Of a stretch of 37,062 bases of DNA, positions 22,747-32,996 are shown piece by piece; position 1 is the first letter of the stretch; every line of letters starts with the position of its first letter. The DNA is taken from positions 1-37,062 of the forward strand of contig JAFWAT010000042.1 of NCBI GenBank assembly GCA_017507525.1, in the 5' to 3' direction. The stretch is from Clostridia bacterium (GTDB taxonomy: Bacteria; Bacillota; Clostridia; UBA1381; UBA9506). Position numbers and translations under genes: made by a program. Below the pieces are notes generated by a model. The model was not told the origin of the DNA, ran no database searches, and saw only the letters and a list, made by a program, of their open reading frames with translations.

Positions 22747-22783
22747 AGCGTTTTTTGTGTATTAGAGAAAGGTGGTGAACACC

Positions 22784-23365
22784 GTGTCTGAGTCAGAATA
22801 TATTAAGCGCAGTCAACAAGGCGATGCAGATGCCTTTGGTCAGCTTGTTACCCTGTATGAAAATAAAATATTGAATTATTGCTATCGCATGCTTGGGAAC
22901 CGGGCAGATGCGGAGGATGCCACCCAGGAAGTGTTCGTAAAGCTGTACCGCTTTATAGACAGCTTTACAGGGCAATCAGTTTTTTCCACATGGTTATACA
23001 AAATTGCTTCTAATGTTTGCCTTGATCTTTTGCGGAAAAACAAACGGCATACAGATACAGTCAGCCTTCACCAGCAAAATGCCGAGGGAGAAGAATTTTT
23101 ACTGAATATAGAAGATAAGGGACTCACGCCTTATGAAAGTGCTCAGGTAAGCGAGGCCCAGCGAGCCTTGTTTTTGGCTCTGGAACAGTTGGGAGAGGAG
23201 CAACGGCAGGTGGTGGTTCTCAGGGATGTAGAGGGGCTTTCTTATGAAGAAATCGCCCAGATTACCGGAACTGCACCGGGCACGGTAAAATCCCGCATTA
23301 ACCGGGCGCGACAGGCACTCAAAAAACTTTTAGAAAAAGATAGGGAACTTTTTTCCCTTTCCTAA
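22784..23365 (+). CDS. ECF-type RNA polymerase sigma factor (SigW/SigE-like)
   Basis: The 193-residue sigma factor has region 2 (ILNYCYRMLGNRADAEDATQ followed by EVFVKLYRFIDSF) and region 4 (LGEEQRQVVVLRDVEGLSYEEIA, with GTVKSRINRARQALKKLL), with no sigma 1.1 or region 3. The GTG at 22784 is chosen: GGTGGTG ends 6 bases upstream, while two earlier GTGs lie inside that site. It is followed after 51 bases by its zinc anti-sigma gene, so its activity is likely held at the membrane and released by an envelope signal. Confidence 0.94.
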   Translation: MSESEYIKRSQQGDADAFGQLVTLYENKILNYCYRMLGNRADAEDATQEVFVKLYRFIDSFTGQSVFSTWLYKIASNVCLDLLRKNKRHTDTVSLHQQNAEGEEFLLNIEDKGLTPYESAQVSEAQRALFLALEQLGEEQRQVVVLRDVEGLSYEEIAQITGTAPGTVKSRINRARQALKKLLEKDRELFSLS

Positions 23366-23416
23366 CGTCTAACTATTAAAGAATGAATATTACCGCCAAA
23401 GAAAGGAGGGGTAACT

Positions 23417-24253
23417 GTGAAGCATACCTGCGAAAACGTAAAAGAACTGCTTTCGTTATACATAGATGAATTGCTGTGTGACGATGAAAGAGATGCGGTT
23501 TTTGCACATCTTGAGACTTGTGCTGATTGCCGAAGTGAATATGAATTTTTATCCGGTATTGTCAAAACAGCAAAGACAATGCCGACTCTTTCAGTTAGTG
23601 AAGAACTCCACGCAAACATTATGCAGACGATAGCAAGGCAGACAAAGGCTAAACCGGTCAAAAGAAGACTGTGGCGTATGGCATCCGGCTTTGTGGCTGC
23701 AGCAGCGGTCATTGCAATTTCGCTTATTTCGCTGGACAGTTTACCCGGACATCCTGATTTGACGACTGAGCCTACACCGAAGGTTACTGCAACAGCAGCA
23801 CCCGTAACAGAAACTGCAGAACCGGCTGAAAAGACGGACACAACGCCGGTTATTACCCTGCCGCCAAGTCGCCCGCAAGAGGCAGTATCTCCGACACCTG
23901 CTGCCCTTCAGGAGCCTGTGGTCCCGGCAGCAGAGGATATACCGGCAGCGCCGGCATCAATGGCGGTAGAGGAGCCGGTTTATACAGGTGATGAAAATCC
24001 ACAGCCGGAGGCGAGAAGCTTTTCCGGAAGCAGAGCCGAAGAGACGGTAAGCTGTTACTATATTGGCGAGGAGAGCTATGAAGAAGCCGTTTTAATTCTG
24101 GATGCTTATGAGTTTGACGGGCTGGCATATTCTATCCCTGCTGGGGAAAAAGAAGCCGTATGCGGCAAATTGGAAAGCTTATCCGGCTATGTGCGGCATA
24201 CAGGCGAACAAAGCGATGCAGATTTCCTTCGCATTACTTTGGTTTGTGAATAA
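23417..24253 (+). CDS. Membrane-bound zinc anti-sigma factor
   Basis: The 278-residue protein begins at a GTG behind AAAGGAGGGG. Its N-terminus has the zf-HC2/ZAS motif HLETCADC (His31, Cys35, Cys38) of RsiW/RsrA-type anti-sigma factors, which bind the neighbouring ECF sigma. One membrane helix follows at about residues 88-107 (ASGFVAAAAVIAISLISL), then an extracytoplasmic Pro/Thr/Ala/Glu-rich stretch (about 110-205) and a small C-terminal domain (about 205-278) with ETVSCYYIGEESYEEAVLILD. The C-terminal domain is unrecognised and may be the sensor. Confidence 0.9.
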   Translation: MKHTCENVKELLSLYIDELLCDDERDAVFAHLETCADCRSEYEFLSGIVKTAKTMPTLSVSEELHANIMQTIARQTKAKPVKRRLWRMASGFVAAAAVIAISLISLDSLPGHPDLTTEPTPKVTATAAPVTETAEPAEKTDTTPVITLPPSRPQEAVSPTPAALQEPVVPAAEDIPAAPASMAVEEPVYTGDENPQPEARSFSGSRAEETVSCYYIGEESYEEAVLILDAYEFDGLAYSIPAGEKEAVCGKLESLSGYVRHTGEQSDADFLRITLVCE

Positions 24254-24350: not shown

Positions 24351-26645
24351 TTAATTTTTTTCTAAATCCTTATTACGGATTTCGACACGTCTTACTTTGC
24401 CGCTGATGGTTTTGGGAAGTTCATCCACAAAATCCACGATTCTCGGATATTTGTAAGGTGCCGTATGTGTTTTTACATATTCCTGAATTTCTTTTTTCAG
24501 TTCTTCTGTGCCAACGGTGCCTTTTGTCAGCACGATGGTTGCTTTTACAATCTGACCGCGCACTTCGTCTGGTACCGGCGTGATTGCACATTCCAAAACA
24601 TAGGGCAGCTCCATGATAACGCTTTCAATCTCGAAAGGTCCAATGCGGTAGCCGGAGGACTTGATTACGTCATCAATACGGCCGACATACCAAAGATATC
24701 CGTCTTCGTCCATGGTTGCCTGGTCACCGGTATGATAGAAACCGTCATGCCATACCTCGCTGGTTTTTTCATCATCTAAATAATAGCCGATGAAAAGACC
24801 GCAAGGCGTATTTTCTTTGGTGCGAATACAGATTTCACCGGTGTCGCCGACGTTACACTCATTGCCATCAGGATCTAACAGGACAACGTCATACAACGGG
24901 CTGGGTCTGCCCATAGAACCGATTTTGGGGGTAGAGCCCACAAAGTTTGCGATAGACAGGGTGGTTTCGGTCTGACCGAAGCCTTCCATAATCTTAAGAC
25001 CGGTTGCCTTTTTAAACTGGTTATAAACCTCGGGGTTTAATGCTTCGCCTGCTGTGGTTGCATACTCGATGGAAGAAAGGTCATATTTTGACAAATCTTC
25101 TTTGATGAAGAAGCGATACATAGTGGGCGGCGCACAGAAGGTTGTGATATTGTACTTTTTAAAGAGGGGAAGAATATCGTCTGAATGGAATCTGTCAAAG
25201 TCATAGGTGAATACACCGGCTTCACAGAGCCACTGACCGTAAAGCTTACCCCAGAGAGCTTTACCCCAACCGGTATCAGAAATGGTAAAGTGCAAACCGT
25301 TGGGGTTTACATTATGCCAATGCTTTGCTGTAGGGTAGTGACCCAAAGCATATTTATAAGAGTGGGTTGCGATGCGGGGATAGCCGGTTGTGCCGGAGGT
25401 AAACAGCATTAGCATGGGGTCATCACCGCAGGGCGAGTCCTCCTTGCGGTCAAAATGGGTGCTGAAGCGTTCCATTTCCACATTAAAGTCGTTCCAGCCG
25501 TCTTTTTGACCACCAACTAAAATCTTCTTGATTTCCGGAAACTCTGCCGCAGCCTTTTCTGCCTCGATGGATACCTCACCGTCTGCAGTACATACAATGG
25601 CTTTGACACCGGCTGCTTTATATCTGTATGTAAAATCGTGCTCTACAAGCTGATTGGTTGCCGGGATTGCAATGGCACCGATTTTATGAAGCGCCAGCAT
25701 ACAGAACCAGAACTGGTAATGACGCTTTAAAACCAGCATAACAGTGTCGCCGCGCTTGATGCCTAAGGATTCAAAATAATTCGCAGTTTTTGCAGAATAT
25801 TTTTTCATGTCACTGAAGGTAAACCGGCGCTCGGATTTATCGTTGCCAACCCACATCATGGCAAGCTTATCGGGGTTCTTCTTTGCAATGGCATCCACAC
25901 AGTCAAAGGCAAAGTTAAATTGATCATCATTTTTGAAGGTAATTCCGTTAAACACGCCATTTTCGTCATAACTGGATTCAATAAAGTTATCAGCAACAGT
26001 TTTTGAAGTATCTTTCACTGAAACGTTGGTTTTGGTAACTACTGGTCCTTCGGGATATTCGTCGCTGAAGTGGCCGTCTTTGGGATTTAAAACAACGGCG
26101 TGGAACTCACAACCGCCCTCGCTGACAGCAATCATACCGTGGGGGATGATGCTGTTATAGAAAATGGAATCACCTTCGTTTAATACTTCAATATGGTTAC
26201 CCACCTGAACTTTTAAAGAACCTTTTACAACCACATCAAATTCCTGACCATTATGCGAAGCCAGTTTGATGGGTGCGTTTTGTTCTTCAGGGAGGTAGGG
26301 GAACTTAACCAAAAAGGGCTCAGCCAGCTTGCCTTTGAATTTAGGAGCCAGGTTGTTATATACATAACCCTGCTTCTTGACAATTTTCATACCATCGCCT
26401 TTTCTGGTGATGTTAAAGGATGTCAGGGTTGAGCTGGTTCCCTCAAGTAAATCAACAACCTCAACGCCGCAGGCTTTGGCACACTTATAAATAAAGGTAA
26501 AGCTAAAGTCGGTTTCACCTTTTTCTAACAGCTTATAATCTTCTGTTGATACGCCTGTCAGCTTTGCCAGCTCTTCGGGCGAATAACCCTTTGCCTCACG
26601 CAGGTCTTTAATTCTGCCTGCAACCTCTTTCAAACTAAATTCCAT
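24351..26645 (-). CDS. XRE HTH - cupin - AMP-forming acyl-CoA ligase fusion
   Basis: The 764-residue protein joins three parts. Residues ~5-65 are an XRE-type helix-turn-helix (GRIKDLREAKGYSPEELAKL, then LLEKGETDFSFTFIYKCAKACGV). Residues ~100-190 are a cupin (GQEFDVVVKGSLKVQVGNH, then LNEGDSIFYNSIIPHGMIAV). The rest is an ANL-superfamily ligase with the P-loop LFTSGTTGYPR, GEALNPE, GFGQTETT, YHTGDQATMDEDGYLWYVGR and the C-terminal catalytic lysine in PKTISGKVRR. It resembles medium-chain acyl-CoA synthetases, activating a carboxylic acid with ATP and CoA. HTH-cupin units are normally separate regulators. The ATG at 26645 has AAAGGAG 7 bases ahead. A T-box leader lies upstream. Confidence 0.92.
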   Translation of the reverse strand: MEFSLKEVAGRIKDLREAKGYSPEELAKLTGVSTEDYKLLEKGETDFSFTFIYKCAKACGVEVVDLLEGTSSTLTSFNITRKGDGMKIVKKQGYVYNNLAPKFKGKLAEPFLVKFPYLPEEQNAPIKLASHNGQEFDVVVKGSLKVQVGNHIEVLNEGDSIFYNSIIPHGMIAVSEGGCEFHAVVLNPKDGHFSDEYPEGPVVTKTNVSVKDTSKTVADNFIESSYDENGVFNGITFKNDDQFNFAFDCVDAIAKKNPDKLAMMWVGNDKSERRFTFSDMKKYSAKTANYFESLGIKRGDTVMLVLKRHYQFWFCMLALHKIGAIAIPATNQLVEHDFTYRYKAAGVKAIVCTADGEVSIEAEKAAAEFPEIKKILVGGQKDGWNDFNVEMERFSTHFDRKEDSPCGDDPMLMLFTSGTTGYPRIATHSYKYALGHYPTAKHWHNVNPNGLHFTISDTGWGKALWGKLYGQWLCEAGVFTYDFDRFHSDDILPLFKKYNITTFCAPPTMYRFFIKEDLSKYDLSSIEYATTAGEALNPEVYNQFKKATGLKIMEGFGQTETTLSIANFVGSTPKIGSMGRPSPLYDVVLLDPDGNECNVGDTGEICIRTKENTPCGLFIGYYLDDEKTSEVWHDGFYHTGDQATMDEDGYLWYVGRIDDVIKSSGYRIGPFEIESVIMELPYVLECAITPVPDEVRGQIVKATIVLTKGTVGTEELKKEIQEYVKTHTAPYKYPRIVDFVDELPKTISGKVRRVEIRNKDLEKN

Positions 26646-26664
26646 TTTTTTGCTCCTTTCGTTT

Positions 26665-26691
26665 CCGTTGCTTTTTAAAAGCATGTAACGG
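26665..26691 (-). other. Small hairpin between the T-box terminator and the ribosome site
   Basis: CCGTT at 26665 and AACGG ending at 26691 flank an inner GCTTTT/AAAAGC stem. It lies just upstream of AAAGGAG on the minus strand and may shield or space the ribosome site. Confidence 0.4.
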
Positions 26692-26703
26692 TTTTGAATA
26701 AAA

Positions 26704-26982
26704 CAAAAAAACCCGCCTCAAAATAACTTTTGAGACGAGTTATGCAACCCGCGGTACCACTCAAATTGCGAAAATAAATCCGCCACTTACCAGACTCAAA
26801 CAAGTCTTTTGCCTTTACGCAGCAATACGGAAGGAATCTACTTGCTGTTGCTTTCGGTCCTCCAACTCAGAAGTGATAGGTCATTGGAAAGCTCCGCCAT
26901 TGGCTCGCAGCAACCGCCAACTCTCTTCAGGCCTTGCAATCCGACCGTCTTCGTCATAGTTGTTTTGTGATATTCAAATTTA
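26704..26982 (-). ncRNA. T-box riboswitch leader upstream of the HTH-cupin-acyl-CoA ligase gene
   Basis: On the minus strand the leader has the T-box antiterminator sequence GAGTGGTACCGCGGGTT (around 26746-26762). It then has a terminator AACTCGTCTCAAAA/TTTTGAGGCGGGTT (26710-26741) followed by seven T. Stem I shows the distal AGAGAG..GGTTGCTGCGAG..CC element and a base stem CGGTC/GACCG. In the specifier region, CCTATCACTTCTGAGT best fits the common pattern codon-A-CTTCTGAGT with codon ATC (isoleucine). TGGT pairs with an A discriminator base, as in tRNA-Ile. T-boxes bind uncharged tRNA and turn on downstream genes. The T-box call is strong; the specifier is a by-eye guess. Confidence 0.88.
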
Positions 26983-26988
26983 CAATAT

Positions 26989-27017
26989 ATTATACTCTTT
27001 GTTATAGTGATTGTCAA
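26989..27017 (-). promoter_or_regulatory. Consensus sigma-A promoter of the T-box transcript
   Basis: On the minus strand TTGACA (27017-27012), 17 bases, TATAAT (26994-26989): a perfect consensus promoter giving transcription from about 26982, just ahead of T-box stem I. Confidence 0.9.
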
Positions 27018-30120: not shown

Positions 30121-31434
30121 ATGAAACAATCAGTATGGTCAAAAACGGTGACATTGCCGCATTTTAAAAGTGTGGAGGAAACCCGTCAAACAGATGTTTT
30201 GATTATTGGCGGCGGCATGTGCGGCTTGCTTTGCGCACACTTTTTGCAAAAAGCCGGTGTGGAATATATGCTTTTAGAAGCAAACCGGATTGCATCCGGT
30301 GTGACGCAAAATACCACGGCTAAACTAACGTTTCAACATGGACTGATCTATGACAAATTGATATGTAATTACGGCAGCGAAAAAGCGCAGATGTATTTAA
30401 CCAGCAATCAGAAGGCATTAGAAGAATACAAACGATTATGCAGTGAAATAGACTGTGATTTTGAGATAAAAGACGCTTATACCTATTCTGTGGTGGATAG
30501 ACAAAAAATAGAAAACGAGGTCCGCGCGGTAAATGCCCTTGGTTTTCATGCTGAATTTGCTGACCCGACAGAACTTCCATTTAAAACCTTTGGTGCGGTT
30601 CGCTTTTCGGGTCAGGCACAGTTTCATCCGCTTGCGTTCGTTTCTGAGCTAGCAAAGGATTTAAACATTTATGAAAACGCCTTTGTACAAGAAATTGCAC
30701 CCCGTGGAGTTTTGGTAAACGGCAAAAAAATTCAGGCAAATAAGATTATAGTGGCAACCCATTTTCCGTTTATTAATAAGCATGGGAGTTATTTTTTAAA
30801 ACTGTATCAGCATCGTTCTTATGTCTCGGCTTTTTCCGACGTACCAAAACTTGAGGGAATGTATGTTGATGAGGATCAAAAAGGCTTGTCTTTTAGGAGT
30901 TATCAGAATCTTCTGCTAATTGGCGGTGGCGCTCATCGTACGGGAAAGCATGGTGGTAATTGGACTGAAGTGAATCGATATGCGAACGCTTTTTATCCGG
31001 ATGCGGTTTTGGAATGCGAATGGGCGGCACAGGACTGCATGAGCCTTGACGGGATTCCGTATATCGGGCAGTATTCGAAACATACACCGGATTTGTATGT
31101 TGCCACCGGATTTAATAAATGGGGCATGACATCTGCCATGGTGGCAGCAATGATTCTTTGTGATATGGTTCAGGGAAAACAAAACGATTTTGCGCCGGTG
31201 TATTCACCGAGCCGGAGCATTTTGAAGCCGCAGCTTGTGATAAACGGTATGGAATCTATGGTGAATTTACTGACACCCACGACCAAACGGTGTCCACACC
31301 TGGGATGTGCACTCAAATGGAATCCTGCAGAGCACAGCTGGGATTGCCCTTGCCATGGTTCACGGTTTGATGAGGATGGTGCCTTGCTTGATAATCCTGC
31401 AACAGGCGGATGGAAGAAAAAAGGCAAATCGTGA
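30121..31434 (+). CDS. FAD-dependent oxidoreductase with C-terminal Rieske [2Fe-2S] domain
   Basis: The 437-residue protein combines a DAO-type FAD domain and a Rieske cluster domain. The dinucleotide motif is VLIIGGGMCGLLCA (about 27-39), then LLEANRIASGVTQNTTAKLT. The C-terminal C-terminal region has CPHLGC and, 15 residues on, CPCHGSRFDEDG, the four cluster ligands (CxH and CxxH), all intact. Relatives such as Bacillus YhfW have this layout, but no proven substrate. The protein stops soon after NPATGGW, somewhat shorter than YhfW. The ATG follows GGAGG. Confidence 0.93.
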   Translation: MKQSVWSKTVTLPHFKSVEETRQTDVLIIGGGMCGLLCAHFLQKAGVEYMLLEANRIASGVTQNTTAKLTFQHGLIYDKLICNYGSEKAQMYLTSNQKALEEYKRLCSEIDCDFEIKDAYTYSVVDRQKIENEVRAVNALGFHAEFADPTELPFKTFGAVRFSGQAQFHPLAFVSELAKDLNIYENAFVQEIAPRGVLVNGKKIQANKIIVATHFPFINKHGSYFLKLYQHRSYVSAFSDVPKLEGMYVDEDQKGLSFRSYQNLLLIGGGAHRTGKHGGNWTEVNRYANAFYPDAVLECEWAAQDCMSLDGIPYIGQYSKHTPDLYVATGFNKWGMTSAMVAAMILCDMVQGKQNDFAPVYSPSRSILKPQLVINGMESMVNLLTPTTKRCPHLGCALKWNPAEHSWDCPCHGSRFDEDGALLDNPATGGWKKKGKS

Positions 31435-31583: not shown

Positions 31584-31697
31584 GATGGGCTTTATAGCCG
31601 TGCTCAGAATCAGCGAGAACAAATCCACTTTGCATGGAGTCTGCTGGCTTAGCGCAAGCTCATACGCAAACAGCTTTGGGTGGATGGTGAAGAGAGG
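31584..31697 (+). other. Structured 5' leader of the ceramidase-like gene
   Basis: The leader contains nested complementary pieces: ATCCAC near 31622 with GTGGAT near 31680, an inner CTGCTG/CAGC pair and a GCTT-AGCGC-AAGC hairpin near 31645. GAGAGG ends just before. No known riboswitch is recognised. Confidence 0.35.
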
Positions 31698-31706
31698 ATG
31701 AATAAA

Positions 31707-32996
31707 ATGAGTGATATAAAAACAGCAAAGGTCGGCGTTGGTCGCAGTGTTATCTCTCCGGTTAAAATGGCACAGCTTTGGGGTTACCCGCTGATTCGTG
31801 ATACAGAAGTGATTCACGATGATCTGCAGGCAACAGCCTTTGCCTTTGAATATGAGGGACGGCAGTCCTTGCTAGTTAATTTAACAATTATTTTTTTGTT
31901 AAATGATGAGTTTGAAATTTTAAGAGAGCTCATCAGCCGGGAAACCGGTGTGCCCTATGAAAACATTATCATAGATTGCACCCATACCCATTCCAGCCCA
32001 GCGACAGATTCTGACATTAAGGATACGGAATATATAGAAACAGTACTGCGTCCCGGTGCGGTGAAAGCAGCTAAAGAGGCACTTTCTAACCTGCAGGAGG
32101 CACTCATGGGTGTTGCTACTGTGGAAAGCCATGTGGGCATTAACCGCCGTGAGGTTCAGCTTGACGGTTGGATTGGTCTGGGGCAGAACCCCTGGGGCAC
32201 CTTTGACCCGACCATGACGGTTATCAGCTTTGTAACAACTGATAAAAAACCCATTGCCAACATGGTGCATTATGGCACGCATTGTACGGCGGCAGGCAAC
32301 AACTTTGAAGTAACCCGCGACTGGTCCGGTGTGATGATTGATCGCTTGGAGGAACAAACAGGCGCTATGACGGCGTTTATCAACGGCCCTATTGGTGACA
32401 CAGGTCCCAGACTTTCTGACGGCAGCACGGCAGCAACGCTGGAACTTGCCTTAGAGTTGGGTGCAGCTGCAGCTCATGATGCAGTTTTTGCATACAGAAC
32501 CATTAAAGATTACCGTCCGTTTGATATGAAGGTTACCATGCAGGAAGTAAAGCTGCCTTATAAGCCACAAATGTCTTACGAGGATGCGGTTGCAGAGTAT
32601 GCAACCCATACGGAAGAAGAAAAAAATGAATATTACGGCAGATGCTATCATCTTCGTAAAGTTATGGCAGAATACGAAGCGGGGCATCCTGTTGAAACTG
32701 AACTGGTTTTGAAAGAAACAGTGATTGCAGTGGGCAATGTTGTTTTTGTGCCGTTCCCCTTTGAAATGTTTACGGAAATGACCCTACGCTTGAGAAAATT
32801 CAGTCCTTATCAGCATACCTTGTCCCTTTCCATCGGTAACGGTTATTACAGTTATCTGCCCTCTCAGGACCAAATTTGCCGGGGCGGGTATGAAGTGGCA
32901 ATGTTCCGTGACTTTAATCCGTATCAGCTGGAGGACAACACTGATACAACAATTGTAACACAGCTCGTAGACATCGTAAAAGCTTTGGCAGAATAA
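31707..32996 (+). CDS. Neutral/alkaline ceramidase-superfamily hydrolase (short form, atypical active site)
   Basis: The 429-residue protein resembles the N-terminal catalytic domain of neutral ceramidases: KVGVGRSVISPV near the start, DCTHTHSSPATDSD (metal-ligand histidine block) and MVHYGTHCTAAG with the next histidine. At the place of the family's GDxSPN serine motif it has GPIGDTGPR, so the usual nucleophilic serine is absent. It lacks a signal peptide and is shorter than ceramidases (about 650-700). It is more likely an intracellular hydrolase acting on another amide or ester. The ATG at 31707 is preferred (GAGAGG 9 bases ahead); an ATG at 31698 abuts that site. A sugar-kinase-like gene follows on the same strand. 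Confidence 0.8.
   Translation: MSDIKTAKVGVGRSVISPVKMAQLWGYPLIRDTEVIHDDLQATAFAFEYEGRQSLLVNLTIIFLLNDEFEILRELISRETGVPYENIIIDCTHTHSSPATDSDIKDTEYIETVLRPGAVKAAKEALSNLQEALMGVATVESHVGINRREVQLDGWIGLGQNPWGTFDPTMTVISFVTTDKKPIANMVHYGTHCTAAGNNFEVTRDWSGVMIDRLEEQTGAMTAFINGPIGDTGPRLSDGSTAATLELALELGAAAAHDAVFAYRTIKDYRPFDMKVTMQEVKLPYKPQMSYEDAVAEYATHTEEEKNEYYGRCYHLRKVMAEYEAGHPVETELVLKETVIAVGNVVFVPFPFEMFTEMTLRLRKFSPYQHTLSLSIGNGYYSYLPSQDQICRGGYEVAMFRDFNPYQLEDNTDTTIVTQLVDIVKALAE

Follow-up and report, generated by a model that had tools for sequence, protein, structure and literature searches.

Why should a T-box riboswitch with an isoleucine specifier stand in front of an enzyme that activates a carboxylic acid? 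The question is raised by a window of 37,062 nucleotides, the whole stretch of Clostridia bacterium DNA analysed here, in which such a leader precedes an acyl-CoA ligase gene on the minus strand. The initial annotation of this DNA hypothesized that the ligase feeds a route from 2-methylbutyrate to isoleucine under tRNA-Ile control. That hypothesis, extended below to a wider regulon, is well supported by the specifier, by the likeness of the enzyme to the Methanosarcina acetivorans ligase MacsMa and by the missing IlvA, IlvC and IlvD, while the substrate is predicted. We consider it likely that a ligase controlled by tRNA-Ile supports the formation of isoleucine from 2-methylbutyrate, which would first be activated and then reductively carboxylated. 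The T-box leader and its specifier, the family to which the enzyme belongs, the set of pathway genes present or absent and the change of specifier among paralogs were established computationally.

A search of the window with cmscan returned the T-box family RF00230 as the sole Rfam match (26966-26728, minus strand; 99.3 bits against a gathering threshold of 93, E=6.8e-21), and the match covers the full model from 1 to 219. Upstream of this leader RNA (26728-26966), and like all further features of the locus on the minus strand, lies a sigma-70-type promoter (TTGACA-17-TATAAT, 26989-27017) with 12 of 12 consensus bases. In stem I, a GAAG strand (26949-26952) pairs with CUUC (26873-26870) to form the helix below the specifier loop, which holds the codon AUC (26875-26877). 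The antiterminator sequence UGGUACC (TGGTACC in DNA, 26753-26759) is evident from the sequence and the RF00230 alignment, and its UGGU would pair with a tRNA end carrying A73. The leader thus contains both the UGGN antiterminator bulge and a competing intrinsic terminator (26703-26741), whose 14-bp stem (26741-26710) is followed by the T tail TTTTTGTTTT. The terminator and antiterminator region folds with -32.6 kcal/mol (z=-4.4), which beats 200 of 200 shuffles. A Shine-Dalgarno sequence, AGGAG (26653-26657), is located shortly before the ligase start codon. The description of a full T-box with promoter, stem I, TGGTACC and terminator before an acyl-CoA ligase is therefore confirmed by cmscan and sequence, and the interval originally assigned to it, 26646-27017, extends exactly from the -35 box to the base preceding the start codon. 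The leader shares stem I with kink-turn and specifier loop, the UGGUACC antiterminator, the competing terminator and the isoleucine specifier with the Ile class of RF00230 (ileS and ilv leaders). Those leaders control a tRNA synthetase, a transporter or the standard ilv pathway, whereas the target here is an enzyme that activates carboxylic acids. No tRNA-Ile gene was found in the loci scanned.

The isoleucine specifier had been called probable, and running RF00230 on the minus strand reads it as AUC. The alignment resolves the loop as ...GACC-UAUCA-CUUC-UGAG with AUC at the specifier position (26877-26875), followed by the usual purine (A) and the helix strand CUUC. Conservation was assessed in the loci of the best 80 relatives of the ligase protein among the 84,980 species genomes scanned, all 80 of them MAGs and, where a source is named, mostly from ruminant guts. 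Two of these loci start inside the gene or too near it and were left unread. ATC is invariant in the remaining 78 of 78 readable orthologous leaders, whereas the triplet before it varies (CCC 30, CTT 29, CCT 14, others). The base after ATC is A in 70 of the 78, and the helix below the loop changes on both strands in relatives, from GAAG/CTTC to GAGG/CCTC. Since the ligase proteins of these relatives share 86-95% identity, the 78 leaders are not independent; the contrast between ATC and its neighbors is nonetheless clear. ATC is also found before more distant ligases of 62-71% identity (L129, L131, the second copy in L213, L214), and L059, which falls inside the Ile clade of the ligase tree, belongs with the ATC leaders. 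It is extremely improbable that the specifier lies in another frame, such as UAU (Tyr) one base earlier. UAU does occur within CCUAUCA of the window and tRNA-Tyr likewise ends with A73, but the bases preceding ATC in relatives are CCC, CTT or CCT, so that UAU is not kept while ATC is constant, and the covariance-model alignment places AUC at the specifier position.

The controlled gene encodes a protein of 764 residues (P0001, 24351-26645), delimited by its open frame and by domain searches. The AMP-forming acyl-CoA ligase domain (residues 252-750, 24396-25892; PF00501 1.5e-58, PF13193 3.2e-21) agrees with the original assignment, which had missed its fusion to an XRE-type HTH domain (residues 12-65, 26451-26612; PF01381, 1.3e-9) and a cupin domain (residues 128-184, 26094-26264; PF07883, 4.1e-9). 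At a guess, this N-terminal part serves autoregulation or ligand sensing. The closest solved structure is that of MacsMa (3ETC; 686 bits, with the next at 375), to which the ligase domain is 57% identical across 522 residues. MacsMa prefers 2-methylbutyrate, and its pocket combines a critical Trp259 with a Gly where acetyl-CoA synthetases have Trp (PMC10455477). Both residues, corresponding to W465 and G557, are present in all 85 Ile-type sequences. In all, P0001 shares with MacsMa the Trp259 of the pocket, the Gly of GFGQTE, Arg490, Lys519, Tyr525 and Tyr527; it differs by Arg in place of Lys461, by the additional HTH and cupin domains and by T-box control. Among NCBIfam models, the MbcS equivalog (NF047394) scores highest, and its 448.4 bits fall below the curated cut-off of 850, so that P0001 is not filed as MbcS. 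Staphylococcus aureus MbcS is selective for the branched-chain short acids 2-methylbutyrate and isobutyrate and feeds fatty acid synthesis (PMC10026030). P0001 resembles it in this top-scoring model, while MbcS differs in priming fatty acids and in its domain architecture. The genome that carries P0001 encodes another MacsMa-like ligase (contig C62, L186:2809-5037), there with HTH-cupin on a gene of its own; it lies downstream of argG-argH-looking genes and has no T-box.

GUA (Val) specifiers precede five paralogous ligases (L176, L192, L195, L212 and the first listed copy in L213) of 58-63% identity, which form a single clade with 97% SH-aLRT support. Genome G048 carries ligases of both types, Ile and Val, in tandem and each with a separate T-box. 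Moreover, a Gly at a distance of four residues from the Trp of the pocket, G461, is constant in Ile-type ligases and MacsMa and is replaced by Ala in the Val clade, which we infer would suit the smaller isobutyrate. T-boxes are not found before two ligases of the P0001 clade (L132, L133), nor before most of the remoter ligases whose HTH-cupin part is encoded by its own gene. A partial T-box at a contig edge, seemingly GUA (Val), precedes a distant MacsMa-like ligase of 42% identity (G018:C83, L183:1-400) and perhaps represents an independent case.

The gene inventory of the source genome (1.36 Mb in 76 contigs, 96% complete) was then compared with the hypothesis, which had pointed to ilv genes and 2-oxoacid:ferredoxin oxidoreductases as informative. 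IlvA, IlvC and IlvD are absent from this 96% complete assembly according to family searches. In the absence of IlvC and IlvD, neither isoleucine nor valine can be made by any route based on acetolactate. Two PF01063 aminotransferases are present, one of them IlvE-like by length (C9), as are IorAB (C40), a PFOR and a VorB-family oxidoreductase with alpha and beta subunits on C21 and gamma on C12. VorB scores 554.6 bits against a curated cut-off of 399 (NF005507) and is a candidate partner for carboxylating 2-methylbutyryl-CoA. No gene for the carboxylation step adjoins the ligase, and no T-box was detected at the VorB-type oxidoreductase or at IorAB. Other T-boxes of this genome precede pheS (UUC), leuA-leuC (CUC) and an aspartyl-tRNA synthetase. 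As leuA-leuC is kept under a Leu T-box in a genome lacking IlvC and IlvD, 2-oxoisovalerate is needed from a source other than acetolactate.

The same complementarity appears across the order in 37 genomes that are each at least 90% complete. IlvA occurs in 1 of 12 genomes with an Ile/Val-clade ligase versus 17 of 25 without (p=0.0011 by a Fisher test, which ignores shared ancestry), and IlvC and IlvD likewise anticorrelate with the ligase (p=0.005 and 0.001, ancestry again ignored). Within family f4 alone, IlvA is found in 0 of 4 genomes with the ligase and in 17 of 22 without (p=0.008, also disregarding ancestry). Among the 12, IlvA accompanies the ligase in G009 alone. This genome carries a complete ilv-leu operon and, separately, the ligase gene, each following an ATC T-box of its own. 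Thus, the two routes can coexist. IlvD-like matches near 355 bits were excluded from the IlvD count; they occur in G021, where the gene sits in a sugar-acid cluster, in G026, in G046 and, as a second match, in G041.

These features suggest a mechanism in which the substrate, the acting oxidoreductase, the direction of flux and the induction by uncharged tRNA are predicted. Under isoleucine shortage, the uncharged form of tRNA-Ile(GAU) would base-pair both with the specifier AUC and with the UGGU bulge, the antiterminator would be stabilized and transcription would run on into the ligase gene. The ligase may then convert 2-methylbutyrate, a fermentation product of rumen and hindgut, to 2-methylbutyryl-CoA. 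Reductive carboxylation by a 2-oxoacid:ferredoxin oxidoreductase, either VorB-type or IorAB, would yield 3-methyl-2-oxopentanoate, from which an IlvE-type aminotransferase could form isoleucine, and the route would stand in for the missing IlvA/IlvC/IlvD pathway. Isoleucine synthesis from 2-methylbutyrate is an established route in rumen anaerobes (Robinson and Allison, 1969, as cited in PMC2812497). That route matches the present proposal in its carbon path and in the type of habitat; what the proposal adds is a ligase gene dedicated to the route and placed under tRNA-Ile control.

The ligase might instead supply 2-methylbutyryl-CoA and isobutyryl-CoA as primers for anteiso and iso fatty acids, with isoleucine shortage acting as a proxy for a lack of primer. 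This would fit the top NCBIfam match, since S. aureus uses MbcS to feed the synthesis of fatty acids (PMC10026030), and both uses can coexist, so that priming might be an additional role. As the explanation of the switch itself we regard priming as unlikely. With IlvA, IlvC and IlvD missing from the source genome, isoleucine must have another source; the split between Val and Ile specifiers maps one-to-one onto amino acids; and fatty acid priming leaves unexplained the Phe and Tyr T-boxes on arylacetate-type ligases of the same group, described below. Still less probable, and in our judgment very much so, is that the bacterium is a plain isoleucine auxotroph whose ligase handles short acids in energy or redox metabolism, the T-box being accidental or a general starvation control. 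The small genome and the lack of IlvA, IlvC and IlvD are in line with auxotrophy, but AMP-forming ligases use up ATP, the isoleucine specifier is constant over the 78 readable leaders from the best 80 relatives, and paralogs carry a matching Val specifier. Furthermore, leuA-leuC is kept under its Leu T-box even though acetolactate cannot supply 2-oxoisovalerate without IlvC and IlvD.

Synthesis of isoleucine from 2-methylbutyrate might be one branch of a broader scheme, because other acid-activating genes of relatives also stand behind T-boxes. UUC (Phe) T-boxes precede PaaK-type phenylacetate-CoA ligases in G004 and G009 (L182:639-2292 and L175:11131-13201, both minus strand). A UAC (Tyr) T-box in G014 leads an operon of SSS transporter, ligase, iorA, iorB, PaaK and ACT genes (L176:655-8572, plus strand; L188), which probably serves the synthesis of tyrosine or aromatic amino acids from arylacetates. 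For arylacetates, an analogous carboxylation is known. CUC (Leu) T-boxes precede an operon for an IPMS-like protein (about 465 residues) and an 820-residue fusion of a TIM barrel, assigned by eye to the N-terminal part, with a CoA ligase; it is seen in G001, G004 and others (L175:3119-6968 and L177:3500-7371, both minus strand; L179, L184) and possibly provides a route from isovalerate or another acid to leucine. The Ile ligase adjoins this operon in 17-18 of the 80 loci from the best 80 relatives. On balance, we favor the reading that in these gut Clostridia this T-box set constitutes a tRNA-controlled regulon that makes amino acids from carboxylic acids, the specifier of each ligase naming the product amino acid. 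The reading as a whole would comprise the pairs 2-methylbutyrate and Ile, isobutyrate and Val, phenylacetate and Phe, 4-hydroxyphenylacetate and Tyr and, possibly, isovalerate and Leu. If it is true that the specifier of each ligase family is the amino acid that its acid becomes, T-box specifiers are usable as predictors of acyl-CoA ligase substrates, and the Ile/Val switch between paralogs would permit substrate prediction from RNA sequence alone.

Both the T-box and the MacsMa-type ligase are familiar on their own. A search of the open literature brought up no previous account of such ligases under T-box control, or of specifiers that track paralogs; PMC2271356 and PMC2650889, the two principal T-box surveys, lie outside its scope, and priority is therefore unproven. 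That rumen bacteria form isoleucine from 2-methylbutyrate is knowledge dating from the 1960s; the tRNA-Ile switch now points to a ligase as the candidate for the initial step and offers a direct handle for testing. It also suggests an explanation for a possible branched-chain acid dependence of such rumen bacteria, a matter of practical interest in ruminant nutrition.

The genes immediately next to the ligase in the window encode a pseudouridine synthase, a D-Ala-D-Ala carboxypeptidase and a sigma/anti-sigma pair, and are not conserved beside the ligase in most relatives. In this pair, a SigW-like ECF sigma factor adjoins a zinc-finger anti-sigma factor (22772-24253, plus strand). Farther along the window, an FAD-dependent oxidoreductase with a fused C-terminal Rieske domain (30121-31434, plus strand) is followed by a neutral-ceramidase-like protein (31680-32996).
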